From a virus, in IMG/VR virus record IMGVR_UViG_3300042502_000300, positions 1-64,000 of that record: 64,000 nucleotides of DNA; one strand, given 5' to 3'. Of this stretch, positions 7,990 to 35,158 are shown in pieces. A program made the position numbers and the translations under genes. Within the stretch, counting starts at the first letter, position 1. Every line of letters begins with the position of its first letter. The notes beneath the pieces are model-generated. The model was not told the origin of the DNA. It ran no database searches and saw only the letters and a list, made by a program, of their open reading frames with translations.

Positions 7990-8534
7990 ATAATTTTTTA
8001 GATGGTCGGAGGTTTTGGGTAATGGGGGGGTTTCACGCGAACGCTCGCAAAAGGAAAACGTTTTAGAAATCGACCGGGGGGTTGCCATTTCCAAAAGTTC
8101 GGCCAGGATTTTTGGCTTTTTGGTTTGGGCTGTCGGTCTGACGTTAGGTCGGTCATTCCGTGCGGTCGGTCGGTGGGTTGGTGTGCGTGTTGGGTGGGTA
8201 GGCAAGCCGTATTGATTCCGCGCCCATGTTATTGATACCATACCCATCCCCTCGAGCGCTCGACCAATCGGTCGGTCAATCAATCAATCGGTCGGTCGTT
8301 TTGCGCGGTTGCTCTGACGTGCGGAGGGGAGGGGTTGGGCCTGCCGTAATTAATACCAATCAAACCGAATACATTCATTTGTCGTATCGTTTCACACTGA
8401 AAGCCTTTGTCAGTAAGCGTTTGATACGCTTTTATTCCGTGTTCAAACGTGTCTCCTTATTTAGAATGAATATAAATTAGCATTTATTTGAATCTTTTTT
8501 GTTGAAAATGTATTAACAATCCAAATAAGTTTTG
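7990..8534. other. GC-rich repeat island without convincing genes
   Basis: This stretch is far richer in G and C than the rest of the window. It carries GGTCGGTC at 8147, 8164, 8270 and 8290. The last two lie in a 20-bp direct repeat of CAATCGGTCGGTC (8265 and 8285). There is also a perfect palindrome CGAGCGCTCG at 8253-8262 and G-runs (e.g. gaggggaggggttggg near 8325). Open frames on both strands here are low-complexity and lack coupling to neighbours, so I treat them as chance. It lies between divergent transcription units, so an origin, centromere-like or regulatory role is possible. Confidence 0.6.
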
Positions 8535-11210: not shown

Positions 11211-11546
11211 AGCTTTACTTTAAGTATGTTACGTTTGTGCCTCACAATCAACAAGTTATGTTAACCCATGTTGATTTGATGTTGATTTTTTTGACGTAAG
11301 TGCCTGATTATCAGGCGTTCATGTCAGAATGTCGAAAATGAACCTCGACTTTTATATTTTTACACACATAGAGAGATACGTTCTCTCTATGTATTATATA
11401 TAATTTTTAATTTTTTTTCTATAGTAGGGGGTAAAATTAACATTCTGACATAAACCCTTATAGAATAAGGGATTAAGAAAAAAAAATCAACATAAAACCA
11501 ACACTAACTACCCAAAAACCAACATTAAACCACCAAAACCAACATT
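11211..11546. other. Repeat-rich intergenic region resembling a replication origin or control region
   Basis: No gene fits here. The motif AAYCAACA occurs at 11246 (+), 11269 (-), 11280 (-), 11485 (+), 11496 (+), 11517 (+) and 11537 (+), with neighbouring copies 11, 20-21 or 23 bp apart. Inside lies a 12-bp perfect inverted repeat (ATGTCAGAATGT 11321-11332, ACATTCTGACAT 11440-11451). This encloses a 10-bp hairpin (CATAGAGAGA 11367-11376 with TCTCTCTATG 11382-11391) and a 35-base almost pure A/T stretch. Two further hairpins are GCCTGA 11302-11307/11311-11316 and CCCTTAT 11455-11461/11465-11471. The 11367 hairpin plus T-runs could also terminate the upstream genes. Confidence 0.65.
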
Positions 11547-12134
11547 ATGAACGCAGTAATCGAAGCCTTTTTAGTAGGCAAAAAGAAAAAACAAGGCAAC
11601 GGCCAAACAGACGGCCGTTCGCTCTACCTATTCGGCAACTTAATCGCGGAGCACCGCGAAGACGGAATGTATGTATCGAATGCCGGCTGGCCAACCAGAA
11701 CGACAAACAAATGGTTAAACATGCTACCTGATACTCGTGTCTACTCACATAAAAAAACTCCTTACCTGAACGGCGAGAAATGGGACGGCGATATGACAAA
11801 GGTAAACGACAACGTTCAGCCTGAGGCAAAGCATGTCGGCGAGATATTCGACATGACATGCGAGTACATTCGCTTAGACGGTTGGAGGGGATATTCAAAA
11901 CCAATCTATTCAGTTCACATGGAACCGGACACAGGAGGGTGGGACGACAGTCCATATCCAAACGCTCAGGCGTTGATCAAGGAAAAATTAGCTGAGCTAA
12001 AGGCTATAGGAATTCCGGTAAAAGTTGTAACATCTGAGACGTCAAACGTTTTCTGTGTAAACCATTTCATTATTGTACCACCTAAATTTTATAACGATGC
12101 AACCACAAGACTTGAACTTCGAAACGTGGGATGA
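11547..12134 (+). CDS. Early hypothetical protein (195 aa)
   Basis: Starts immediately after the AACCAACA repeats. The sequence has a basic N-terminal loop (GKKKKQGNGQTDGRS), several beta strands (SLYLFGNLIAEHREDGMYVSN) and conserved-looking Trp/Gly turns (GWPTRTTNKWLNML, LDGWRGYS). No known motif. Because the repeats abut its start codon, it could be the protein that binds them, or be regulated by them; both are guesses. Confidence 0.75.
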   Translation: MNAVIEAFLVGKKKKQGNGQTDGRSLYLFGNLIAEHREDGMYVSNAGWPTRTTNKWLNMLPDTRVYSHKKTPYLNGEKWDGDMTKVNDNVQPEAKHVGEIFDMTCEYIRLDGWRGYSKPIYSVHMEPDTGGWDDSPYPNAQALIKEKLAELKAIGIPVKVVTSETSNVFCVNHFIIVPPKFYNDATTRLELRNVG

Positions 12135-17350: not shown

Positions 17351-17635
17351 ATGGAAGAGAAAATCAAACAATTAATAGAACGTGATGCATTGGCATCCAA
17401 GTCGCAAAAGCAAAAGCATGTACATAGACGTCATTACCTCTTCTACTTATTGAGAGAGCGAGTCGGTATGACACTGGAGGCGATAGGTGAATTATTTAAT
17501 CGGGACCACGCTACAGTCATCCACGGCATCAATATCTATAAGTCCAGGGAAGAGATGAAAGATCCATACATGAACCGAGACATTGCTGAATATAAAGAAT
17601 TCCTACAAGATGATAACTTACTTCAAATCAATTAA
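17351..17635 (+). CDS. Stand-alone DnaA domain IV-like DNA-binding protein (94 aa)
   Basis: Residues 30-75 match the C-terminal DnaA-box-binding domain: RHYLFYLLRERVGMTLEAIG and the signature GELFNRDHATVIHGI. The AAA+ ATPase and other DnaA domains are absent. It would bind origin-like sites without ATP control, either to mark the phage origin or to compete with host DnaA. It overlaps the primase-helicase start by 26 bases, so the two are co-translated, which fits a role in replication initiation. Confidence 0.85.
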   Translation: MEEKIKQLIERDALASKSQKQKHVHRRHYLFYLLRERVGMTLEAIGELFNRDHATVIHGINIYKSREEMKDPYMNRDIAEYKEFLQDDNLLQIN

Positions 17636-19958
17636 TGACACCAACACACCATATCATGTAGACGTAAGCGAAGCAATCAAGAGAATTAGAAACGGAAAGT
17701 CAAAAGAATTAGTAGAGGCTGTCCGTAAAGAGACGGACAAAGAAGGCCGTAATGAGAAGAAGAAGAAACTTCCTGCTATTTGTTTTTCCGGTACATTCTC
17801 CAGACGAGCAGACAATGCGATACTTGAGCATAGTGGGTTGATATGCATCGACTTTGATGGATTCAGAGACGAACAGCATTTAGAGACCAAGCGACAGGAG
17901 TTGATCGATGACGACTACAGCTACTGCGTATTCACATCACCATCAGGCGATGGGCTTAAGGTACTTGTAAGGATACCAAAAGATGCTTCCAACCATAAGA
18001 AGTACTTCAACTCTTTACAGAAGCATTACAACTGCGATGAGTTTGACGTTACAAGCAAGAACATCAGCCGTGTATGTTATGAGTCGTATGACCCTGAGAT
18101 CTTCGTTAACGAGCTGTCATTCGTTTGGTCAGAGATAGAGGCCGAGGATGAGTATAAGCCTCAGGTACGTCCAATGATCAAGGTAGATGACACCAACGAG
18201 ATAACAAGACGTCTGACAATTTGGTGGAGCAAGAGCTATGGCTTAGTACCTGGACAACGCAACAACAACTTGTTTGTACTAGCGGCCGCACTAAATGAGT
18301 TTGGTATTGATCAGGCAACAGCTCAGCAGGTGTTGATGAACATCGATGCCTCAGGTGAGATGCATAAGGAGATACCAACCATTGTCATGAGCGCATACCG
18401 AGACATCAGTAAGCACGCGACAAAGTTCTACGAGGATGTTGACAAGACTCAACAGATCAAGCGAGATGTTAAGATGGGTATGCCCAAGGAAGAGGTGGCT
18501 AAGATACATGGCGTTGAGGAGGTTTATGATGATGAGGAAGATGATGATGTATTTTGGACTAAGTCTAGCAAGGGTAAGGTTGAGTTGGTTCCATTCTTAT
18601 TCAGGAAGTATCTTGAGAAGTATGGGTTCTACAAGTACTACCCAGTTGGATCTTCATCGTTTGTATTCGTCCGTGTGGTAGACAATACTATCAACGATGT
18701 CAACGAGGACATGATCAAGGACTTTGTACTTGACTACCTATTAACCATTGACGATATGTCGGTATACAACTTCTTTGCATTGAATACTAAGTTTTTCACT
18801 GAGACATTCTTAAACTATGTGCCAAAGATTGACGCTAAGTTTAAAGAAGATGGTCCTGATGAGGCTTACTTATATTATAAGAACTGTGCTGTTAAGGTTA
18901 CTAGAGATAACATCATTCGAATAGACTACAAGGACTTAGGAGGTCATGTATGGGACAAGCAGAAGATCGATCGAGACTTTGCTAAGTCTGAAGATGCCAT
19001 GTGTGAATTCAAGCAGTTTGTTTCAAACATATCCGGAGATGGTTCTGAGAACCTAAGGTCTATGGAATCAACGCTTGGGTATTTGATGCACTCACATAAA
19101 CCACCTAGCTATTGCCCGGCAGTTATATTAAACGATGAGGTGATCAGCGACAACCCTGAGGGTGGTACTGGTAAGGGAATCTTTGTTAAGTCCATCAGCC
19201 ACATGAAGAAGCTAGTGACCATAGATGGTAAGGGATTCAGCTTTCAAAAGTCTTTCCCATACCAAAGGGTTCAGGTAGATACGCAGACACTAGTCTTTGA
19301 TGACGTCTCAAGGCACTTCGACTTCGAGAGGTTGTTCTCTATCATTACTGAGGGGATAACGCTTGAGAAGAAGAATAAAGATGAGATTCATATTCCATTT
19401 GAACGATCGCCTAAGATTATTATAACAACTAACTACGCGATTAGAGGTGCTGGTAATTCATTCGAGAGACGTAAGTGGGACCTTGAGTTTAAGCAATACT
19501 ATTCAAAGTCATATACACCTGAGAGTGAGTTTAATCATATGCTATTCAGTGGTTGGGATAAGGCTGAATGGAATAGGTTTGACAACTACATGATCAAGAA
19601 CATACAGCTATACTTAAACAAGGGGTTAGTTCGCAGTGAGTTTAAGAACTTGAGAACGCGTAAGTTTATCGCTGAGACATCGGCAGACTTCTGGGAGTGG
19701 TGTATGGATAGGGACAACCTAGACACCAAATCAAACGCCAAAACATTAGGTCAGTCATTATTTAATAAATTTACTGAGCAGTATTCTGACTATGGCCAAT
19801 ACGGCAGATATAAGATGTCTCACAATAAATTTTACAGGTGGTTAGATTCTTATGGTGAATATGCGTTTGATAGTAAGCCAAAGATATATCGATCGTCAAA
19901 TGGTAAGATGGTTGAGTTTGTCGTTAGAGAGGTTAAGCAGAATGAATTAAATTTTTAG
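17610..19958 (+). CDS. VirE_N/BT4734-type primase-helicase (782 aa)
   Basis: Start at 17610 (MITYFKSINDTNTPYHVDV). Residues 1-150 fit the BT4734-like/VirE N-terminal domain, with HSGLICIDFDGF and SPSGDGLKVLVRI as the metal-binding and nucleotide-contact pattern of primase-like folds. Residues 200-290 form a helical linker domain. An SF3-type helicase follows: Walker A NPEGGTGKGIF near 515, Walker B LVFDDVSRHF near 558 and sensor KIIITTNYAIRG near 600. It should prime and unwind phage DNA. No polymerase is encoded nearby. Confidence 0.88.
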   Translation: MITYFKSINDTNTPYHVDVSEAIKRIRNGKSKELVEAVRKETDKEGRNEKKKKLPAICFSGTFSRRADNAILEHSGLICIDFDGFRDEQHLETKRQELIDDDYSYCVFTSPSGDGLKVLVRIPKDASNHKKYFNSLQKHYNCDEFDVTSKNISRVCYESYDPEIFVNELSFVWSEIEAEDEYKPQVRPMIKVDDTNEITRRLTIWWSKSYGLVPGQRNNNLFVLAAALNEFGIDQATAQQVLMNIDASGEMHKEIPTIVMSAYRDISKHATKFYEDVDKTQQIKRDVKMGMPKEEVAKIHGVEEVYDDEEDDDVFWTKSSKGKVELVPFLFRKYLEKYGFYKYYPVGSSSFVFVRVVDNTINDVNEDMIKDFVLDYLLTIDDMSVYNFFALNTKFFTETFLNYVPKIDAKFKEDGPDEAYLYYKNCAVKVTRDNIIRIDYKDLGGHVWDKQKIDRDFAKSEDAMCEFKQFVSNISGDGSENLRSMESTLGYLMHSHKPPSYCPAVILNDEVISDNPEGGTGKGIFVKSISHMKKLVTIDGKGFSFQKSFPYQRVQVDTQTLVFDDVSRHFDFERLFSIITEGITLEKKNKDEIHIPFERSPKIIITTNYAIRGAGNSFERRKWDLEFKQYYSKSYTPESEFNHMLFSGWDKAEWNRFDNYMIKNIQLYLNKGLVRSEFKNLRTRKFIAETSADFWEWCMDRDNLDTKSNAKTLGQSLFNKFTEQYSDYGQYGRYKMSHNKFYRWLDSYGEYAFDSKPKIYRSSNGKMVEFVVREVKQNELNF

Positions 19959-24195: not shown

Positions 24196-25359
24196 ATGGC
24201 ATTATATACCGAAAGGATACACGAGCTTTATGCAAGTGGTGTAACCAACAAGGCTGAGATTGGCCGGATACTGATCAAAGAATTTAATCTTGACACTAGC
24301 GAAAACACCATGCGTGTTATGGTGTCTAGGACATTAAGCAAGAATGTTGATTGTGATGAAGGAGTCAAGGACGCATGCGAAAATTTAGGCATAAGCCCAA
24401 GCTCAGTACCATACATGTGGCTCAAGTCAAAGGAAGCCTCCCTCTTTATTAAGAATCCTAACTACAAGGTATCTGAGATTGACTATGACAAGATCATAGC
24501 TGATTGCATGGATGGATATGTTCCATTAATCAAGAAGTATGTTCACCCGGTAAATTCATTCGATCGTTTGATCTGGACAGATGTCCACGTCGGAATGGAT
24601 GCCAGTCGTAAAGGCTTGGCGTTATATGCTACCGATTGGAATGCTGATGTATTGAACAAGCAGATTGATGAGATGGTTTCGTTTGTTGTAGGTAATAAAA
24701 AGAGCGATTACTTGATCATTGATGAGTTAGGTGACTTCATGGATGGATGGGATGGTGAAACGACGCGTAAGGGCCACAAACTACCTCAGAATATGACCAA
24801 CGAAGAAGCATTTGAAGTTGGATTGAAGGCTAAAGTATTATTAATTGACAAGCTAGCAAGTGTATATAAACACATTACATGTAACAACATGTGCGAGGAT
24901 AACCATTCAGGCGCCTTTGGCTATGTTGTTAATGCAGCATTTAAACATATTGTTGACTGCAAGCATTCAAACGTTACGGTAATAAACCATCAACGATTTT
25001 TAAACCACTACATAATAGGTGATCATGGATTCATCATTTCGCATGGTAAAGATTCCAGGAACCTTAAGTTCGGATTCAAACCACAACTTGACCCAAGAGG
25101 CGCTGAAAAAATATCTCAATACATTAGACACAATGAAGAGCTCAGAAAATGTAAGTTCATTGAATTCAGTAAAGGAGATTCGCACCAGTGCCTGTTCGAC
25201 ATGTGCACTTCAGATGAATTTGACTACTTCAACTACCCGGCATTCTCGCCGAGCTCAGAGTGGGTACAAACAAACTTCAAAAAAGGGCGGTCCGGATTTG
25301 TCTTCCAAAATGTAGACATGCACTCGGACCGCAAGATTATTACCCCTTACTTTTTTTGA
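24196..25359 (+). CDS. Calcineurin-like metallophosphoesterase with N-terminal helix-turn-helix (387 aa)
   Basis: Residues 5-45 resemble a helix-turn-helix (YASGVTNKAEIGRILIKEF, NTMRVMVSRTL). The metallophosphoesterase core follows: D-x-H in TDVHVG near 128, GDFMDGWDG near 178, CEDNHSG near 232 in place of the usual GNH(D/E), HGKDS near 282 and GDSHQ near 327. This is enough metal ligands for an active two-metal enzyme, probably acting on nucleotides or DNA (MRE11/YfcE-like). The protein ends in the early region and overlaps the convergent giant gene by 20 bases. Confidence 0.82.
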   Translation: MALYTERIHELYASGVTNKAEIGRILIKEFNLDTSENTMRVMVSRTLSKNVDCDEGVKDACENLGISPSSVPYMWLKSKEASLFIKNPNYKVSEIDYDKIIADCMDGYVPLIKKYVHPVNSFDRLIWTDVHVGMDASRKGLALYATDWNADVLNKQIDEMVSFVVGNKKSDYLIIDELGDFMDGWDGETTRKGHKLPQNMTNEEAFEVGLKAKVLLIDKLASVYKHITCNNMCEDNHSGAFGYVVNAAFKHIVDCKHSNVTVINHQRFLNHYIIGDHGFIISHGKDSRNLKFGFKPQLDPRGAEKISQYIRHNEELRKCKFIEFSKGDSHQCLFDMCTSDEFDYFNYPAFSPSSEWVQTNFKKGRSGFVFQNVDMHSDRKIITPYFF

Positions 25360-28300
25360 TTATCTGATCAGCCTTCATTCCGTTCTGAATGTCTCTCAAC
25401 ATATCTTTTGTTGGCGATGGATTTATCTCTAGTAATTTGATGTACTCAGACTTTTGATCACCTCTTAGACCCCCATTTCTTTCGACAAATTTAATCTCAT
25501 CAATAGCTGTCTCAGTAGTTTTCTTTGTCTTAATAAGATCTCTTTCGAACTCATTTAAGTCACGACCTAGCTCCTTTTTAACTTCACTATAGCTCTCCTT
25601 TTGAGTTTTAGACATTGACTCAGCGTCTTTGACTATCTTGAATGACTTGTTAGCAATCTGATCAAGCTCTCTAGTACCATAAATAGTAGCCGCAAATTTC
25701 ATCATAAGCGGGGCTGTTAATTTATCTCTAGACTCCTTAGATAAGAACCTTTCATTGTTATAATTATCAGTGTATTCACCACTGTTCCAAGCATTAAACA
25801 ATTCTAACAATTCAACTCCTTTCTCCCACTGAATACTTAATGACCCTTTATTAGCCTCTGTATCAATATAGAAGCTTCTAGCATTCTTTTCTTCAAAGGC
25901 TTTTTTCTTTTCTTCAATCTCGTCATCCGTAAGATTGCCTTTTTGTTTCAGTTTATTAACATAATCCTCTACTTGTTTTTGATCAGCCTTGAATAAACTA
26001 CTTCCCTTCATAGTCTTATTTGCCAACATTAACGTGTAATTATCTAGCAGAGGAACAGGTGAAATAATGTCTGTAAATAACTTAGAATAAGAGCTGAGTT
26101 TTGCATTATTTAATAGCTTATTGTATAGTTCTTCTTGGTCATCGTCATCATAGCCTAATGCTGAAAGAGCTGAAGTTAATATTGCCTTAGCTATGTAGTA
26201 TCTAATTGAATTATATACAGCAATCTCTCCAGCAATTGAAACAAGTGATCTAGATGAAGTTGCAATATCTTTACCTGAGAACAACGAGTTTAAGTCGTTC
26301 CACATCCTGTTCTTTTGGTTGATACCAAACGATGCGAATGGGAAGAATATACTTCTAAGTATTTTTACAGCCGAGCTCTTACTTGTGAATAATTTACCTC
26401 TTAATGCGGCATCTGTTGAATCCATGTTTCTATCTACCATTAACTGAGCATAGTCAGCTGCTTTGTCATTTACTGGCTTAGTAGTATCAACTGACTCAGT
26501 AAATCCAAGCAATCCCTGCTCAACCAATGATTTACGATAGTATGCCATCCATGCTAATTTACGAGCAATAGCATCTGGATATGCAACCATTATATTAAAC
26601 AGTCGCATATTTTCCTTAGCGATAAATTTCAATACATATTGATCAGGTCTATTGTTTAAGTCAGCTTTTTCGATTGACTTATCAACTTCCCCCATTGCCA
26701 CAAGTATTTCGTCTCCTCCAACGTTTGCAATTGATCTACCTGATTTAGATATAAATTCAAATACATCCTTAGAAAAATCAGTAGGTCTGATATATTCTCC
26801 AGCGTTTATAATCGTATTGGTCATACCAGATGAGAACTGATTTACAAACTGACCAATCCCAACAAGTGCACGAGCAGCGCCAAATTGAGCCATATAGTCT
26901 GTTAGTTTATTTAAGACAGCTAGACCATCGTCAGTAACAAAATTACTTCCCTTCTTAGTTCTAACATAGTCAATCATTGCTCCCTTTATAATCTCTAGGT
27001 CTTCATTAGATCCTAAGATTTTTTCATTTTCCTCTGAGTTAAAGAACCCTTCAAATTGTCTGATAGGTCCAGCAGTATATAAGTCAACTAATGCATTTCT
27101 ATACTGCCTAAACATATTGTTATCAAAGTCAAGGTCGATATGCATACCTTGTTGCAAATTTTTCGGTCTTGTTATTGGCATCAATATACCTGCCTTATTC
27201 TTATCAAATGTTTGATTTGCATAGTTAGATATACCAAAGAAATCCATTGTTGAATTATCTTGATTAGACCCAAAGGTTTTTTTAAGGTCAGTCATCTTAT
27301 AAACATAAGGGGTATAGTTTATATCTTGAGTAAGTATTTGATTATACATACCAAGAGCTAAGTCACTTAATGGATCAACTATGTCGGCAAACATATCTAT
27401 AGCAAAGTTAACAGCTTCAATGTTTTCTTTCTTAGCCTTACTTAAAACCATGTCTATACTGACGTCATCTCTAAACACCCCAAGATCAGTCAATACCTTC
27501 TTATATACAACTGCTTTTTTCTGATCAACTGAATTTCCTTTGCTTAGTGTATCAACTGAGTTTCTTAAGATAGTAATATTTCTATCAAATTCCTCTTGCT
27601 GTAATTCCTCACTAGCAACCATTGTTCTCAATAGGTTTGCAAGTGCTCCCCTTTGGAATATATTCTCGGCAGTATTAAATCCTTTTACTTTACCAAACTT
27701 AGACAAATACTCTCTTTGTTTCTTCATGGCTTGAGCTTCGGCTTTGTTTGCTCCGTTCTCAATGTCTTGTATACCTGATGCCTTCTTATAAGCTAATAAC
27801 GCCTCTTTTGTTCTGAACTTTCTTTCAAGTATTAAATTAAGTTGAGATAGTGCCTTGAACTTAATTTGAGCTAGTCCTTTAGATCTAAGTACTCTCAAAG
27901 GTTTTGCTTTACCCTTGAACTTAGTGACATTCTCTTTACCAATGTAAAGACTCATTAATTCACTAAGTCCAGCGATAGATCCATTTGTGAAGTATGTGTC
28001 TAAGGCATCCAATATTCTAATCGACTCTTTGGTCGGAATGATTGTCGGATCAATTGATGCAGCTTTTTTAACAATATCAGGATCTGAATCCTCAACCATC
28101 TGCTCAAACTCAGCAAGCCTCTCTTCAATTTGGTCTAATACCTCAGCATTAAAATCTTCCGGAACCTTCAAGTCTTTTAGTTCAGCCTGCATAACATCAG
28201 CTGCAACATTATCGCTTGGTTTACCGGTAATTCTTTCGTATAGGCTTCTCAAGTTACCTAGCAAAATCTCTGTTTGTCTAGCCTCCTCATCAAAAACATA

Positions 28301-31300
28301 CTGAGCAACCATTTGGAAGTCAGCTTCTTTCTTCCAGTTAATTACACCTTTTACCGCTTGGCTTTTTCTAACTGAGTCATATATAGCTTGTGCTACCTCT
28401 ATGTAGTCGTCGATATCTTCTACCCACTTAGGATTTAGTTGACTAAACCCTTTTGCTGCTATAGCAAATGGATTTGAAGCGCCTTTAAGATTTTTCTTAA
28501 TCTTATTCTTCATTCTAGTAGCACGCTCTACTTTGTCAATATACTCCGCCTTGTCAAATACTTTAGCTACATAGTCGTTGAACCTCTTAACCATCTCAGG
28601 GTTATCTAAGTTCACCCTATTAAGGGTAGAAATAACAGTGCTTGCTTGCTTAAGGTTGATTGATCCTTTCTTAACCATTGCTTTAACGCTATCACTGATT
28701 GACTTTCTAACTTCAGTTTGAGCTTTCTTTTGTTCTCTTTGCGCTCTGACCTCTAGTTTGATCTGACCGATTAATGCTTTAGCTTCATCGTTCACAATCA
28801 CCACCTTAGGCTTTTGGCCCAAAATTTTTGGTGCTTTTTGGAACTTGATCTTTTGCTTAGAGAATAAAGTTTTCTTTGGATCTATAATTACATAGTTCTC
28901 GATATCTTGCTTTAGCGTTTCAAGGTTTGTATCTATGAATTTAATGCCATCATACCCTCTGCTATTTAACTCATTAAATAGTTTCTTGGTATCTGACTCA
29001 CTCATAGATGTTTCAAATCTAGGGTCGATTAACTCAAATAAATTAAGCTCATCAATATTCCATCCTTCACCTGCTTCTAGTCCTAACTCCTTGATCAAAT
29101 CAAAGGCAATTTTTTCGTCAGCTAGTTTTGTTTCATCTATATCAAATTCAACTACCTTACCATTATTATCCTTAGCATATAGTTCAGCTTGTTTCTTGTC
29201 TTTTGAAACGTATAAAGGTTCGTTGCTTTTTAAATCTGATTCATTGACAATATCACCTCCATGATATACTAATTGTTTCTTGCGTTTGGTAAATCCTTTT
29301 GTTCTTGCTTTCTCAGCTAATGCTTCTTGCTTTGCACCTTTCTCAGCTGTGAATCCCATTCCTCTAGCAATATCTGTAGATACATCAGGACGTTGTTCCT
29401 TAAAATATTGAGGATTTGTTTCTTGTAATTCAGCCTTAAACTTAATCTTATTTGGAGATGTTAAATGAGTGTATGTTCTATCTTCTCTTCTAACAAAATT
29501 CTTTGAGTTTACCCTAGTATATTTATCATCGTATGATTTATCCTCAGGAAATTTCTCTTGTACTATTTTCTTTAATCGGTCTTTGTCAAGGTTTTCCTCA
29601 TTAAAAACCATTTGTGATTTAGCAAACTCACTAAAGTTTTCATTCACTGGATATAGACCATCTAATAAAAATGACTCATCAGTATATGGTAATTTACCAT
29701 TAAACAAATGGTGTTTAATCCCTTTGCTATCAATACCTGATATAAATTGATCTATACCTTCAGAAGTAGGTAATGTCATCTCAAATCCAGCAGCTAATAA
29801 ACCACCTTCATCAGAAGCGTACATCTCTTCAGTGAATAAAGTATTATCACCGTATTCATTTAAGAATGCCATTCTATTAAACCCTAGGTCTTTTAATGAC
29901 TGTTTAATATATGGCGTAGATTTATTGGTTCTTATATCAGCCTTTTCAGGCAATAATGTTTTTAATATTTCTCTTCTTACATCAAACGTAGTGTCTTTGA
30001 CAAACTCTTGAGCAAAACCAACCTCATCAAATTTCCCTGGATTTTTAATAAGCTCAATTAACTTTTGATGTGTTTTATTTTTATTCAAAGCATCAACAAC
30101 TGACTGCTTAGACTCAATGAAATTTACAAATGAATCAGATATTGCTTTGTAGTTTGTTTTGTTTTGTTTCTGTAATTCTATTAATCCTCGTCCAAAATAT
30201 TTACCACCATAGTAATTACCAACAGTTGAGCTAGGGTTTTGAACCATAACTAAAACAGCTATCTTTTCATTTGGCCCATATCTATTAACCATCTTAGATA
30301 TAGTTGTTTTTGCTGTCGTCATATCTACAGAAGCAAAGCCAATTTTACCATCGACATTTTCTTTTATAGCTATGTATCCAACACCACCATATATTGGATC
30401 TCCATTTGAGTCATATCCAACTCCTGTGGCATCTGATTGTATCATAAATACTTTTCCGTCGTATTTATCAACTACATCTTTTAAGCTTTTAGTAGGGATA
30501 TTTGTTACAAAGTCAACATCATATTCTGCTTTTCTTTGATACTTAATTTTCATTGGAGCGTTAGGCTTAACGCTTGCAGCTTCACCAACTGAATAAGGCT
30601 CTAACTGAGTTATGTCCTCACCAACGTTCAATCCTCTAGTGACTGCATTAATAAAGTTCACCGCATCCTGAGATGTAGATTCCTTAGTAAATACATTACC
30701 AAGACCAAGTTTCTTAAACAATCTATTGATTAAGGCTTTGAATTTAGTGAGCCCTGTCGTAGTTAACTCTTCTTGGTTTGCGGCCAAGATACCACCCAAC
30801 TGAGCAACAAACTCATCGGACCTTGTCTCTAGTGTTTCTTGATCTGTCTCTCCTTCATATCGTTCAATGAATGCATCTAACTCAGCAAGCCTAGCCTCGT
30901 CTTTTATGATACCTCTAAGGCCATTAGCCATGTCGATAATATATTTACCCTTAACACCATTTACCATTAATGCATGGTGAACAGCTTCGTGTAATAATGT
31001 TACCGTATTGGCTTGTGACATATCTAAATGAATCTCTCCATCAAAATAAGATCCAGCACTTGACTCGCTTTCAATTGATTGCTTGTTCTCTCCTGTCTTA
31101 TTAGCTATCGCATCGCTATACTGATCCGTATTTTCGTGGAGGTATATCTTAACACCAGGTAATGCCTTAAGTATATTTGTAGCCGTTCTAACGATTGGAT
31201 TTCTTTTATACTTAACAGACATCGTTCTGACGTTCTTTTCAGTAATTTCGTTCTCAGAAGCAATAGCTGCTTTTGGTTGAGTAGTAGTTTCTAATAAAGG

Positions 31301-34300
31301 ACTTATTAGTTTATCATACTTATTGTATATCTCATTATACTTAGCTAAAACTTTAGCAGGCATAAGAGTTTTATCTATCTCGCCATTTACTTTGTAGCTT
31401 TCTATTTTAGGTATAGCCTTAAGAAGTTCAGCCTGTTCCTCAGCTCTGTATACAGCTACTTGATCAACCTCAGCAGTTGTTCCCATTTCGGGAGCAGTTA
31501 CCGTCTCTGCTTGAACTACAGGAGCTTGCTGTGCCATAACATCATTGATGGTCTGTGCATTAATTGCACCGCCCACAACGGTAGGTAGGATTACATCTAG
31601 GTTTCTCTGAGCTTCCTGTTGAGCTGCTTGCACTTGTTCAGGTGTAGCGTTCTCCTCAATCTTAACAGATGCTGATATGTATCCAGGACGAGGAGTTGTT
31701 ACTCCTTGCTCGAAGATATTTTTACCATCACCACCTTTACGAGAGAACGCAACGGCATATTGATTGCCGTCTTTGCCTTCTACTACGGCTATGCCTTGGT
31801 TTTGATTAGGTAATTGAGACCTTACGTCACCAACATTATCTTGTTCAGATATTGATTCATAACCTCTAATGATACCACCTATCTCAGCCTTAGGAGCTAC
31901 TTCAGTTACTTCTTTAACTTGGATAGGTTTGGTCTCAAGTAATACTCCCTCTTGCTGTATCTGAGTAGCCAAGTCCATTGGTACAAGATTTCCTGTCTCT
32001 AAATCTGTAGTAGACTCATTAGTTACCTCATACTTCTTACCATCAAGATCAAATACTTTTACTTCTTTCCCTTGGACTTTTTCTTCTTGTTTAGATTCCT
32101 TTAAAGTTTGAAGTTCTTCCAATATGGATTGCCTTGCCTCAGGAATTAAATTACCTTGTCCTACTTCTTGTTTTGAAGCATTATCAGATGCTATCATTCC
32201 TTCTAGCTCTGATATTCTTTTTACTTTTTCTTCTTGGGTGATTGGACCTTCTTCGGTAATGATTTCCCCTTGGACGCCTTGTCCCATTCCTTCACGTTGA
32301 CCCCCTGCTTCTCCAGTTGTTTCTGGTTCGCGTGGAAGAACTTCCTCTGTGCTTCGCTCTTGTACGGCATTTTTACTGATTGTTTTTAATTCTTCATTAA
32401 TCGCATTGATGCGCTCAGTCTGAGCAGCAACAAGCGACGGGTCTTTCCCGGCTATTTCTTTTTGTAAGTTATCACGTTCATTTAATAATTGGAACGCTTG
32501 GTATTTACTCTCGTCTTTTATTTCTTTTGGAATCTTATTTACTGTAGCCTCAAGTTCATCAAGATTGCTTAATACTTGCTTAGCATCTTTTACAGTCATA
32601 TTTCCTAATAATACCTGATCCTTTATGTTTAATTTATAGATCTCCTTTGTAGTTGGATTTGTAATTAGGTCCTCAATATTATTTAGCTGATACTTTGTAA
32701 TTTCTGTCTTTGATGTCTGAGCTGTCTGAGTTATTGAGTTCATTCCAGCACCTCCTAAATAACCTAATTTAAAGCTAGTGCCTAAACGATCAAATACTTC
32801 TCCCCACGTTTTAGGATTCTCAAAATATTTCTTGCCATTCAATTCATTAAAGACATCCTTTAATACCATGTCAGAAGATTCTTGTCCTAATTCTGTAGAT
32901 CCCTCAATAAATCCAGCGGCATTTACTTGAATAAATCCATTTGCTAATGCAGCTTTATAGTTGTTCTTTACAGCTAGCTCAAACATTTCAGCTGTAGCGT
33001 TTTCAGGCAATTCTTTTACAACCTGTTTTAATATCCAGTTTGTTAATCCCTTTCCTCCCGGTGACTTAGAAAACATCTTGGATAATCCATATTTTTCAAG
33101 TAATCCAACAGTGGCACCAAACGTTGCCGACATTAATATTTTTTGAATTTCTGGAATATCTCTAAACTCAGGCGCATTCATTTGGTCCTTCATGTTCACA
33201 TATGATGCGGCATATAAACCTAAAGTAGCACCTCCAGGTGATCCTGTCATTAAACCAGCAATGGCAGATCCTCCAGATTCAGCAAGACCAAAAACTAAAG
33301 TCTCAAGTGTTGATCTACCTTCACTGCTTGTATATACATCACTTACTGACCCTGGAGCTAATTGAGTTAAAAATCCTTGTAGGTCGCCTTCATTGAGAGA
33401 AGTATCCTGCTCTAGTAAAAACCTCCAAGAGTTCTCAGCTCCTTTTAAAAATGCATATGTTGTACCTGTTAATAGGTTACCTCTTTTTGATTCAACTAGG
33501 TAATTAGATGCAGCAACTTGATCGATATCAATCTTATCACTACTAGCCTGTAAGTATTCATTATTAACATTAATAGCTTCTTGCCTTATTGCTTCTTTCT
33601 CTTCTTTTAGTTTTGGCAAGTAGATATTATTATAATCTTCTTGTGATATCTTGCCTGCTTCGTAAGCTTCTTTTGCTTTAGTAGACCAATCTTCATAGTC
33701 TTCTTTTTTGGCTTTAACGTCTTCAAATTTTAGTTGAACTTCAGCTAGAGTTGTCTTAACATTTTCTAGTTCAGCTTTAGTAAAAATGGCTGATTCCATA
33801 TTTTCATCAGTCATAGCCTTAGCAGATCTTTTGTCTTTTTCTTTGCTTAATACTAGTTCTGCATCAACCAATTTTTCAGATAATGCTATTCTATCATATG
33901 GTGTAGCATTGCGAATCTGCTCTGTTAGATCTTTTACTTTTTGATAAGCATATGAATAATCCTTAGAATTCATTTGAATATTTAACCATCCATAAAGTCT
34001 ATTTGATTCTTCTTTGTTTCGATCAGAAGTCCAGTTGTCTAAGCTTATTTTCTTAGTCTCTCCGGTGATTTTATTTTTAACTAATACCTCATCGTAACCT
34101 GCACCGGATTCCTCTACCTCTATATAGTCATATCCATTAGTGACTTCTCTTAATTTAGATACAACATCCTCTTCATCCATTCCAACAAAACCAGAATTTA
34201 TGAAAGTTAGTTTCTTGTCTATCTGCTCTTGTCTTATAAATTCAGGATCATTTTCGTCATAAACCTTAAATGTCTTTTCAAATAATTCCTGAGATTTATC

Positions 34301-35158
34301 AGCAGTTTCTTTTGGTTTAGCGGCTGTTACTACTGACTTATATAGACCCATTGACGCAAGTCTATCTGCATGGAAGTCATATGTTTTTTGGTCTATATTT
34401 TTATTTGCTAGTAACTTATCCCAATACTCTATGGTATCTCTTTGAGAAGGTTCTTTTTTAGGATTTGGATCAACCCATTTTTGTTCAGGTTCTTTTTCTA
34501 CTACACCAGGAGCATAAACATTTAGTCTATCTAGATCAAACTTAGTAGCTTTTTTTGCCTGTTCATTTAGTATCTTTTCTCTCTCACTTATCTTATCACC
34601 TGTTAGTGGCACATAATTGTTACCTACTTTTTTCATCCATTTATTTCCGCTTCTTTTGTATAAAGCGTCTGGATTGCTAGGAAGTATATATAGTTCTTCT
34701 TTAGGTTGAGGTTTATATTCTACGGTATTAGCTTCAATTTTTTTAATACGATTGGGATCAGTGACTTTCTTATAGTCAAAGACACCATATTGCTTTTTAT
34801 ACCAACCGTCTGCTTGCTTCTTGAAGAATACCCCTTCTGCTTGTCCTGGAATGGTATATATACCCTCACCTTTTAAAGATGAAGACTCCGTAGGCTTTGT
34901 TGTTGTTTTGGATAAGCGATCCAATGAAGTATTGTCTTGATCCAATGTTGATTGTGAAACCTCTTTTTTTTTTCCGCCAAAATATGAGGCGTGAAATGCA
35001 TTAGCGTCAAGGTCAGTCATTTTATTCTGTTTCAAGTATGACCAAATTTCTTTTGATTTTGACGGATCACTATACGCATTATAAAACGCATTAGCATCAA
35101 GATCGGTTAATTTATTAGTCTTGAAGTAATTATAAATTTGTTGATACTTTTCGTTCAT
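25340..35158 (-). CDS. Giant polyvalent internal virion protein (3272 aa)
   Basis: This is the longest gene in the window. The N-terminus has two copies of a TDLDANAF repeat (residues 8-62) and then two copies of a YxxP-YK-W-K unit near 95 and 150. A Gly/Ala-rich hydrophobic stretch at about 620-690 could enter a membrane. A zincin motif HEAVHHA lies near 1390. Near 1966 is an ADP-ribosyltransferase-like region (LVYHGGD, LYVSKDKKQAELYAKD). The last 1200 residues are largely helical, with FFPFASFGINQKNRMW near 2940. Such polyvalent proteins are ejected with the genome. No RNA polymerase catalytic Asp cluster was found. Confidence 0.88.
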   Translation of the reverse strand: MNEKYQQIYNYFKTNKLTDLDANAFYNAYSDPSKSKEIWSYLKQNKMTDLDANAFHASYFGGKKKEVSQSTLDQDNTSLDRLSKTTTKPTESSSLKGEGIYTIPGQAEGVFFKKQADGWYKKQYGVFDYKKVTDPNRIKKIEANTVEYKPQPKEELYILPSNPDALYKRSGNKWMKKVGNNYVPLTGDKISEREKILNEQAKKATKFDLDRLNVYAPGVVEKEPEQKWVDPNPKKEPSQRDTIEYWDKLLANKNIDQKTYDFHADRLASMGLYKSVVTAAKPKETADKSQELFEKTFKVYDENDPEFIRQEQIDKKLTFINSGFVGMDEEDVVSKLREVTNGYDYIEVEESGAGYDEVLVKNKITGETKKISLDNWTSDRNKEESNRLYGWLNIQMNSKDYSYAYQKVKDLTEQIRNATPYDRIALSEKLVDAELVLSKEKDKRSAKAMTDENMESAIFTKAELENVKTTLAEVQLKFEDVKAKKEDYEDWSTKAKEAYEAGKISQEDYNNIYLPKLKEEKEAIRQEAINVNNEYLQASSDKIDIDQVAASNYLVESKRGNLLTGTTYAFLKGAENSWRFLLEQDTSLNEGDLQGFLTQLAPGSVSDVYTSSEGRSTLETLVFGLAESGGSAIAGLMTGSPGGATLGLYAASYVNMKDQMNAPEFRDIPEIQKILMSATFGATVGLLEKYGLSKMFSKSPGGKGLTNWILKQVVKELPENATAEMFELAVKNNYKAALANGFIQVNAAGFIEGSTELGQESSDMVLKDVFNELNGKKYFENPKTWGEVFDRLGTSFKLGYLGGAGMNSITQTAQTSKTEITKYQLNNIEDLITNPTTKEIYKLNIKDQVLLGNMTVKDAKQVLSNLDELEATVNKIPKEIKDESKYQAFQLLNERDNLQKEIAGKDPSLVAAQTERINAINEELKTISKNAVQERSTEEVLPREPETTGEAGGQREGMGQGVQGEIITEEGPITQEEKVKRISELEGMIASDNASKQEVGQGNLIPEARQSILEELQTLKESKQEEKVQGKEVKVFDLDGKKYEVTNESTTDLETGNLVPMDLATQIQQEGVLLETKPIQVKEVTEVAPKAEIGGIIRGYESISEQDNVGDVRSQLPNQNQGIAVVEGKDGNQYAVAFSRKGGDGKNIFEQGVTTPRPGYISASVKIEENATPEQVQAAQQEAQRNLDVILPTVVGGAINAQTINDVMAQQAPVVQAETVTAPEMGTTAEVDQVAVYRAEEQAELLKAIPKIESYKVNGEIDKTLMPAKVLAKYNEIYNKYDKLISPLLETTTQPKAAIASENEITEKNVRTMSVKYKRNPIVRTATNILKALPGVKIYLHENTDQYSDAIANKTGENKQSIESESSAGSYFDGEIHLDMSQANTVTLLHEAVHHALMVNGVKGKYIIDMANGLRGIIKDEARLAELDAFIERYEGETDQETLETRSDEFVAQLGGILAANQEELTTTGLTKFKALINRLFKKLGLGNVFTKESTSQDAVNFINAVTRGLNVGEDITQLEPYSVGEAASVKPNAPMKIKYQRKAEYDVDFVTNIPTKSLKDVVDKYDGKVFMIQSDATGVGYDSNGDPIYGGVGYIAIKENVDGKIGFASVDMTTAKTTISKMVNRYGPNEKIAVLVMVQNPSSTVGNYYGGKYFGRGLIELQKQNKTNYKAISDSFVNFIESKQSVVDALNKNKTHQKLIELIKNPGKFDEVGFAQEFVKDTTFDVRREILKTLLPEKADIRTNKSTPYIKQSLKDLGFNRMAFLNEYGDNTLFTEEMYASDEGGLLAAGFEMTLPTSEGIDQFISGIDSKGIKHHLFNGKLPYTDESFLLDGLYPVNENFSEFAKSQMVFNEENLDKDRLKKIVQEKFPEDKSYDDKYTRVNSKNFVRREDRTYTHLTSPNKIKFKAELQETNPQYFKEQRPDVSTDIARGMGFTAEKGAKQEALAEKARTKGFTKRKKQLVYHGGDIVNESDLKSNEPLYVSKDKKQAELYAKDNNGKVVEFDIDETKLADEKIAFDLIKELGLEAGEGWNIDELNLFELIDPRFETSMSESDTKKLFNELNSRGYDGIKFIDTNLETLKQDIENYVIIDPKKTLFSKQKIKFQKAPKILGQKPKVVIVNDEAKALIGQIKLEVRAQREQKKAQTEVRKSISDSVKAMVKKGSINLKQASTVISTLNRVNLDNPEMVKRFNDYVAKVFDKAEYIDKVERATRMKNKIKKNLKGASNPFAIAAKGFSQLNPKWVEDIDDYIEVAQAIYDSVRKSQAVKGVINWKKEADFQMVAQYVFDEEARQTEILLGNLRSLYERITGKPSDNVAADVMQAELKDLKVPEDFNAEVLDQIEERLAEFEQMVEDSDPDIVKKAASIDPTIIPTKESIRILDALDTYFTNGSIAGLSELMSLYIGKENVTKFKGKAKPLRVLRSKGLAQIKFKALSQLNLILERKFRTKEALLAYKKASGIQDIENGANKAEAQAMKKQREYLSKFGKVKGFNTAENIFQRGALANLLRTMVASEELQQEEFDRNITILRNSVDTLSKGNSVDQKKAVVYKKVLTDLGVFRDDVSIDMVLSKAKKENIEAVNFAIDMFADIVDPLSDLALGMYNQILTQDINYTPYVYKMTDLKKTFGSNQDNSTMDFFGISNYANQTFDKNKAGILMPITRPKNLQQGMHIDLDFDNNMFRQYRNALVDLYTAGPIRQFEGFFNSEENEKILGSNEDLEIIKGAMIDYVRTKKGSNFVTDDGLAVLNKLTDYMAQFGAARALVGIGQFVNQFSSGMTNTIINAGEYIRPTDFSKDVFEFISKSGRSIANVGGDEILVAMGEVDKSIEKADLNNRPDQYVLKFIAKENMRLFNIMVAYPDAIARKLAWMAYYRKSLVEQGLLGFTESVDTTKPVNDKAADYAQLMVDRNMDSTDAALRGKLFTSKSSAVKILRSIFFPFASFGINQKNRMWNDLNSLFSGKDIATSSRSLVSIAGEIAVYNSIRYYIAKAILTSALSALGYDDDDQEELYNKLLNNAKLSSYSKLFTDIISPVPLLDNYTLMLANKTMKGSSLFKADQKQVEDYVNKLKQKGNLTDDEIEEKKKAFEEKNARSFYIDTEANKGSLSIQWEKGVELLELFNAWNSGEYTDNYNNERFLSKESRDKLTAPLMMKFAATIYGTRELDQIANKSFKIVKDAESMSKTQKESYSEVKKELGRDLNEFERDLIKTKKTTETAIDEIKFVERNGGLRGDQKSEYIKLLEINPSPTKDMLRDIQNGMKADQIIKKSKG

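Follow-up and report, generated by a model that had tools for sequence, protein, structure and literature searches.

A mirrored array of helically phased half-sites as the probable replication origin of a 64-kb flavobacterial-type podovirus

Introduction

Origins of replication generally combine helically phased iterons with an A/T-rich region at which the DNA opens, helped by IHF or HU (PMC5043065). In iteron plasmids and in phage lambda the iterons are bordered by the A/T-rich region on one side (PMC5043065), unlike in the locus described here. PICI origins consist of an AT-rich region flanked by two sets of iterons, and drive plasmid replication (PMC6092414). PICI and SaPI elements such as SaPIbov1 and EcCICFT073 encode a Rep helicase of the D5/DUF927 class, in some cases joined to a primase, and have element-specific iterons (PMC6092414, PMC7581432), which helicases of this kind recognise through their C-terminal domain (PMC7581432). 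The SaPI Rep seems to occupy its iterons in the form of two hexamers. In phage P4 the initiator is the alpha protein, a fused primase-helicase of the D5 class, and ori and crr carry type I iterons. The likeness of P4 to the system described here lies in this shared D5 class; the alpha protein and its cognate ori are also mentioned in PMC6092414. In the PLE satellites of ICP1, the origin co-varies with the DNA-binding domain of the initiator, a change for which a nuclease directed at the origin has been proposed to select (PMC8263062). Replicons of the pRN1 and BIP-1 type likewise combine an AEP primase, an SF3 helicase and a winged helix with a cis element 3′ of the replication gene, but that element is a large stem-loop and not a mirrored iteron array (PMC4234260).

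Lactobacillus phage A2 (NC_004112.1) has a GenBank rep_origin at 32208–32717, directly 3′ of its primase gene. In that DNA we find two sets of inward ACGGGA half-sites (4 + 4) that flank a centre of 79% A/T, with the right inner pair 8 bp apart. The A2 origin has reportedly been demonstrated experimentally.

We analysed a 64,000-nucleotide window that is nearly the whole of a 64,170-bp virus record. Its source is a large, uncultured phage of Bacteroidota bacteria, a 64-kb podovirus of the flavobacterial type; akin to it are the Flavobacterium elemo phages and the Cellulophaga phages, with portal proteins about 47% identical. An initial annotation had pointed to nested, symmetric repeats at 11246–11544 that looked like a replication origin. 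The observation as a whole stands, with the anatomy of the locus corrected.

Results

Twelve inward half-sites around an A/T-rich centre

The locus occupies a 336-bp non-coding gap (11211–11546) between two small genes. An Rfam search of the region returned no matches, and comparison with annotated phages over 9–15 kb gave no nucleotide similarity. The features of the gap are as follows.

11226–11284, + strand: outer left half-sites, cores at 11226, 11258, 11268 and 11279 (ATGTTA or ATGTTG, inward), kept in relatives
11246–11258, + strand: IHF/HU-like site AATCAACAAGTTA, a match to the IHF consensus WATCAANNNNTTR, lying among the outer left half-sites
11321–11334, + strand: inner left half-site pair ATGTCAGAATGTCG, 8 bp apart
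11335–11437, no strand assigned: A/T-rich centre, 103 bp, 76% A/T; presumed unwinding element
11366–11392, + strand: central hairpin with an 11-bp stem, inside the centre; not conserved
11438–11451, + strand: inner right half-site pair TAACATTCTGACAT, 8 bp apart
11455–11471, no strand assigned: short inverted repeat CCCTTAtagaaTAAGGG (CCCTTA-TAAGGG), between the right inner and outer half-sites
11488–11545, + strand: outer right half-sites, cores at 11488, 11499, 11520 and 11540 (CAACAT or CAACAC)

Between 11226 and 11545 there are twelve half-sites with the consensus AAATCRACAT and the core YRACAY, six on the left (NTGTYR) and six on the right (YRACAY), all pointing inward and none reversed. 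From the centre outward they are spaced by 8, 42, 11, 10 and 32 bp on the left and by 8, 42, 11, 21 and 20 bp on the right, the innermost three spacings being identical on the two sides. The last right half-site (core 11540) abuts the ATG of the next gene at 11547.

Of the motif AAYCAACA, which the initial annotation had placed on both flanks, the window has 14 copies (7.2 expected), 7 of which do lie within 11246–11544. The copy at 11246, however, faces the wrong way for the array and is part of the IHF-like site, and the half-sites at 11226, 11258, 11321, 11329, 11438 and 11446 had been overlooked; with them the set becomes six plus six. Similarly, the 12-bp inverted repeat described earlier exists, but on each side it is really two half-sites 8 bp apart, and the supposed 35-base A/T tract shrinks to an uninterrupted run of about 27 nt (11392–11418) within the 103-bp centre.

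We scored mirrored clusters of half-sites across the window. The best inward score was 12; elsewhere in the window no cluster scored above 6, and outward-facing ones reached 4. Dinucleotide shuffles reached at most 8 (300 whole-window shuffles) and 6 (2000 local shuffles), and the score of the array was never attained.

The array is conserved independently of its flanks

Relatives were gathered via the primase-helicase and a neighbouring 195-aa protein, which gave more than 100 related loci. The search for the repeats in related phages, proposed with the original observation, found the array in essentially every contig of sufficient length; it was single in each genome (18 contigs examined), and lay 5–10 kb upstream of the primase gene where that gene was present. 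Among 37 arrays, 413 half-sites pointed inward and 39 outward. In 17 of the 21 representative arrays each side had its 8-bp inner pair, and the centre measured 88–123 bp with 74–87% A/T across 36 arrays.

Other than in the inner pair, half-sites are 10–11, 20–21, 31–32, 42–43, 53–54 or 64 bp apart. As suspected from the first reading, the spacings follow the helical repeat, as iterons of origins do, with R = 0.85 near 10.6 bp (149 spacings in the 21 representative arrays); the formally tiny Rayleigh p-value is overstated, because the arrays share ancestry. The IHF-like sequence WATCAANNNNTTR is matched 34 times in 43 arrays, with an expectation of 2.5; a few of these matches overlap half-sites, and arrays of the TCGTCAT type lack the sequence.

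Genes around the array change while the array does not. The right neighbours of 40 arrays belong to 12 unrelated protein families and the 37 left neighbours found to 10, and two loci with near-identical arrays (L058 and L061) have different genes on the right. In MW202828, whose primase is 49% identical, the core of the array is kept, next to groEL and across the strand switch.

The hairpin of the initial annotation (there 10 bp) exists, but as an essential element it had to be rejected: folding z-scores range from −5.5 to +1.3 with a mean of −1.35, 16 of 36 arrays fall below −1.5, and the hairpin is absent in a close relative, L083. Cumulative GC skew, proposed as a check, switches not at the locus but near 7.9 kb, the point at which the genes change orientation; in relatives the switch lies 0.5–6 kb to either side of the array. 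Since the skew follows gene orientation, it is uninformative here. Separately, the position of the short inverted repeat at 11455–11471 is partly conserved, being seen in several relatives with a changed loop (CCCTTATTCTATAAGG).

In one clade (for example G029, G030, G031, G034 and L098) every half-site reads ATGACG/CGTCAT, in up to 12–13 copies, instead of TCRACAT. The set of half-sites has thus been rewritten in concert at least once, from TCAACAT to TCGTCAT.

The same layout in other phages

We scanned 2.9 million viral contigs blindly with a DNA pattern, using inner pairs of the TCGTCAT type as the query. The scan returned 29 contigs, comprising the group of the window phage and unrelated lineages. 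In one of these lineages, family X, the array lies 9–160 bp 3′ of a primase-helicase gene with NrS-1 HBD, D5_N, DUF5906 and Pox_D5 domains, wherever the end of the gene is present, although not every member shows each of these domains. In L292 the array lies some 170 bp beyond the 3′ end of a BT4734-type primase-helicase gene, and another lineage with the same layout, family Y, encodes a DUF927 helicase; two further matches (L296 and L305) are not cleanly assessable.

Relatives of the family X protein include those of phi105, Lactobacillus phage A2 and Listeria phages. The top mirrored cluster lies 36–165 bp 3′ of the primase stop codon in phi105, Listeria PLM26, JNU_P5, RcapNL, Shaobing and Wrath, and is not beside the primase in 5 of 12 reference phages (Bas82, phiSASD1, Javan346, phiEG37K and Adolin). 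In phi105, a phage of B. subtilis, the candidate array is about 50 bp past the 3′ end of the primase gene. A mirror scan with exact 6-mers misses the array of the window itself, whose degenerate half-sites escape it.

A pattern scan of genome contigs gave six matches, among them one strong array in a Prevotellaceae MAG (L280, CACZMV010000031). On this bacterial contig, positions 279–659 hold an array-like cluster of four AAGATGTCA and four TGACATTT around an A/T palindrome. The L280 assembly encodes DUF5906 proteins, and the cluster is possibly the origin of a prophage or island, of the same class.

We also noted podovirus-like contigs (L287, L289, L291, L299, L303, L306–L310, L312, L313 and L237/L258/L277), several of them with DUF2201/ATPase genes, whose arrays have half-sites of one type or the other (TATGACGTTATGACG or AATGTTA). 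In the L313 genome there are in addition a polymerase of the PolA type and a DUF927 helicase whose coding sequence is divided between two frames.

The candidate initiator

Two genes of the window were considered as sources of the protein that reads the half-sites.

17601–19958, + strand: AEP-D5 primase-helicase gene (BT4734-like_N + DUF5906); most likely initiator and putative array binder
17351–17635, + strand: stand-alone DnaA domain IV protein; unsupported as array binder

The primase-helicase combines AEP primase and DUF5906 domains, and Foldseek matches its structure model, the helicase part of which is of low confidence, to AsfvPrimPol and poxvirus D5/E5. In a comparison of about 35 protein families among the phages, the primase-helicase has the most conserved-column changes linked to the half-site motif: 13 of 366 otherwise near-invariant columns, against 8 of 358 in a control clade, all from a single switch event. 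Several of the 13 columns cluster in a linker at about residues 277–295. Fixed differences from the nearest relatives of the TCAACAT type number 1 in 180 in the primase domain, 22 in 50 in residues 241–300 and 14 in 60 in residues 721–780. The last segment holds a predicted C-terminal winged helix, whose recognition helix is unchanged across the motif switch. Because it reflects one evolutionary event, this covariation is only a lead. An HTH-like stretch in the linker was considered as the DNA-binding part and rejected, as it is deleted in the array-bearing G025 and G041. If the array is an origin, the phage's AEP-D5 primase-helicase is probably its initiator.

Discussion

A probable PICI/A2-type origin away from its helicase gene

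Judged from its sequence, the region 11226–11545 is with high probability the theta-type origin of this 64-kb flavobacterial-type podovirus, with the AEP-D5 primase-helicase as the most likely binder. The reading of the locus as an origin is well supported because the architecture is conserved, the half-sites are helically phased, the array is independent of its flanks, and it matches the A2 origin and the PICI layout; three hints that had first been advanced for it, the DnaA domain IV gene, the hairpin and the GC skew, found no support.

By analogy with the SaPI Rep, the primase-helicase would bind the two inward sets of half-sites as two opposed oligomers, the 10.6-bp phasing placing the half-sites on one face of the helix. 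An IHF/HU-type protein would probably bend the DNA between inner and outer sites. The A/T-rich centre would melt under strain, and helicases would then load on opposite strands. Primers would be made for the host polymerase, as we infer from the lack of an early gene large enough for an obvious phage polymerase. The outermost right half-site overlaps the 5′ leader of the next gene, which makes an added regulatory role possible.

Comparison with the described systems places the locus closest to A2 and the PICIs. Like the window phage, A2 has inward half-sites around an A/T-rich centre, an 8-bp inner pair and an AEP-D5 (P4-family) primase, which in A2 is adjacent to the array; its half-sites are fewer and unrelated in sequence. 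The likeness to PICI origins is one of layout, and the exact 8-42-11 mirror spacing is the one described here for the window element. A D5/DUF927-class Rep helicase is encoded in the same element (DUF5906 with an AEP primase, putatively the cognate binder), but the carrier is not a satellite: it is a 64-kb phage with portal, terminase and structural genes of its own. Several points count against the proposed model, among them the weak covariation of the primase-helicase with the motif and the five reference phages whose top mirrored cluster is not beside the primase. In addition, the array lies about 6 kb upstream of the primase gene, whereas in A2 and the PICIs the origin, like the array of family X, is immediately 3′ of the primase or rep gene; and the CGTCA-type arrays do not have the IHF-like site. 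The region is very probably a phage replication origin, apparently a mirrored iteron origin of the PICI/A2 type that has come away from its helicase gene.

Alternative explanations

It is improbable that the region is an origin whose initiator is the stand-alone DnaA domain IV protein, or host DnaA, reading the half-sites as degenerate DnaA boxes. A protein of the Bac_DnaA_C family is indeed encoded beside the primase, the half-site AAATCAACA agrees with TTATCCACA at 6 of 9 positions in a direct comparison, and variants of the recognition helix (RDHATV, RRHTSI, RRHSLV) roughly track the clades. This tracking, which at first made the protein an attractive binder, breaks down in two cross-matched pairs. 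G034, with a TCGTCAT array, and G040/41, with a TTGACAT array, have near-identical DnaA domain IV proteins with the same helix, RHHSVV, and G031 and G040 share the helix of the second paralog, yet differ in half-site. Moreover, a Pfam HMM detects no DnaA domain IV in four array-bearing records (G003, G004, G020 and G026), nor was the domain detected in the array-bearing family X phages searched. A DnaA protein is thus not found wherever the sites are, and its helix does not track them, as would be expected of an oriC-like origin.

Slightly less probable still is an operator or an early promoter and leader, in which a regulator bound to the repeats would control the downstream operon. Such a role would fit the position of the last right half-site, which in many phages directly adjoins the ATG of the following gene, and a −7-like box (TAnnTTTG) is present at 11230 of the window; but no −7 box of the Bacteroidota type is conserved in the arrays, an operator would not be expected to have a mirror-symmetric A/T centre, and the array stays unchanged beside flanking genes from at least 10–12 families, in MW202828 even beside groEL across the strand switch. 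A partition (centromere-like) or packaging site is very improbable. Centromeres of the parS/parC type are also iterated sites of one protein, but the window ORFs scanned gave no ParA or ParB match in Pfam, tens of kilobases separate the array from the terminase and portal genes, and the counterpart layout in A2 is annotated as rep_origin. We give as little weight to a mere transcription terminator followed by an A/C-rich leader with chance repeats. The central hairpin, followed by T-rich DNA, does have a terminator-like score; it is, however, the half-sites and not the hairpin that are conserved, and the array is far beyond chance and kept across unrelated phages. A replication origin read by the primase-helicase thus remains the preferred explanation.

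Implications for phage and satellite replicons

A layout published for small phage satellites is found here in full-size phages. The data moderately favour a picture in which mirrored arrays occur in several unrelated lineages, sometimes kilobases from the helicase gene, with a concerted half-site switch that possibly served to escape satellites or origin-directed nucleases. If correct, this would provide a defined origin and initiator for a large group of uncultured flavobacterial-type phages, and a sequence signature for finding origins in phages with AEP-D5 helicases. A layout so far regarded as specific to satellites would extend to full-size phages, with a bearing on the way in which satellites gained their replicons. 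The switch of all motif copies between close relatives would also offer a natural system in which to study the joint change of specificity of an initiator and a dozen sites.

Additional observations

Stand-alone DnaA domain IV proteins often occur as two paralogs per phage, second copies being found in L128–L136, and their DnaA-box-reading helix is unusually changed (RDH to RRH or RHH). These proteins may target the DnaA boxes of the host and work, for instance, as a dominant-negative form of DnaA.

Elsewhere in the window, a 3272-aa ORF without a Pfam domain lies beside the structural genes on the leftward strand (25340–35158), and a collagen-like or tail-fibre repeat gene with tandem repeats of 9, 18, 36 and 180 bp occupies the contig end (1–1430). 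Dense simple repeats of the CGGTCGGT type fill 8000–8350, where leftward and rightward genes diverge; G004 has similar GC-rich repeats, and so does MW202828, at nearly the same position (CGACGCGACG).
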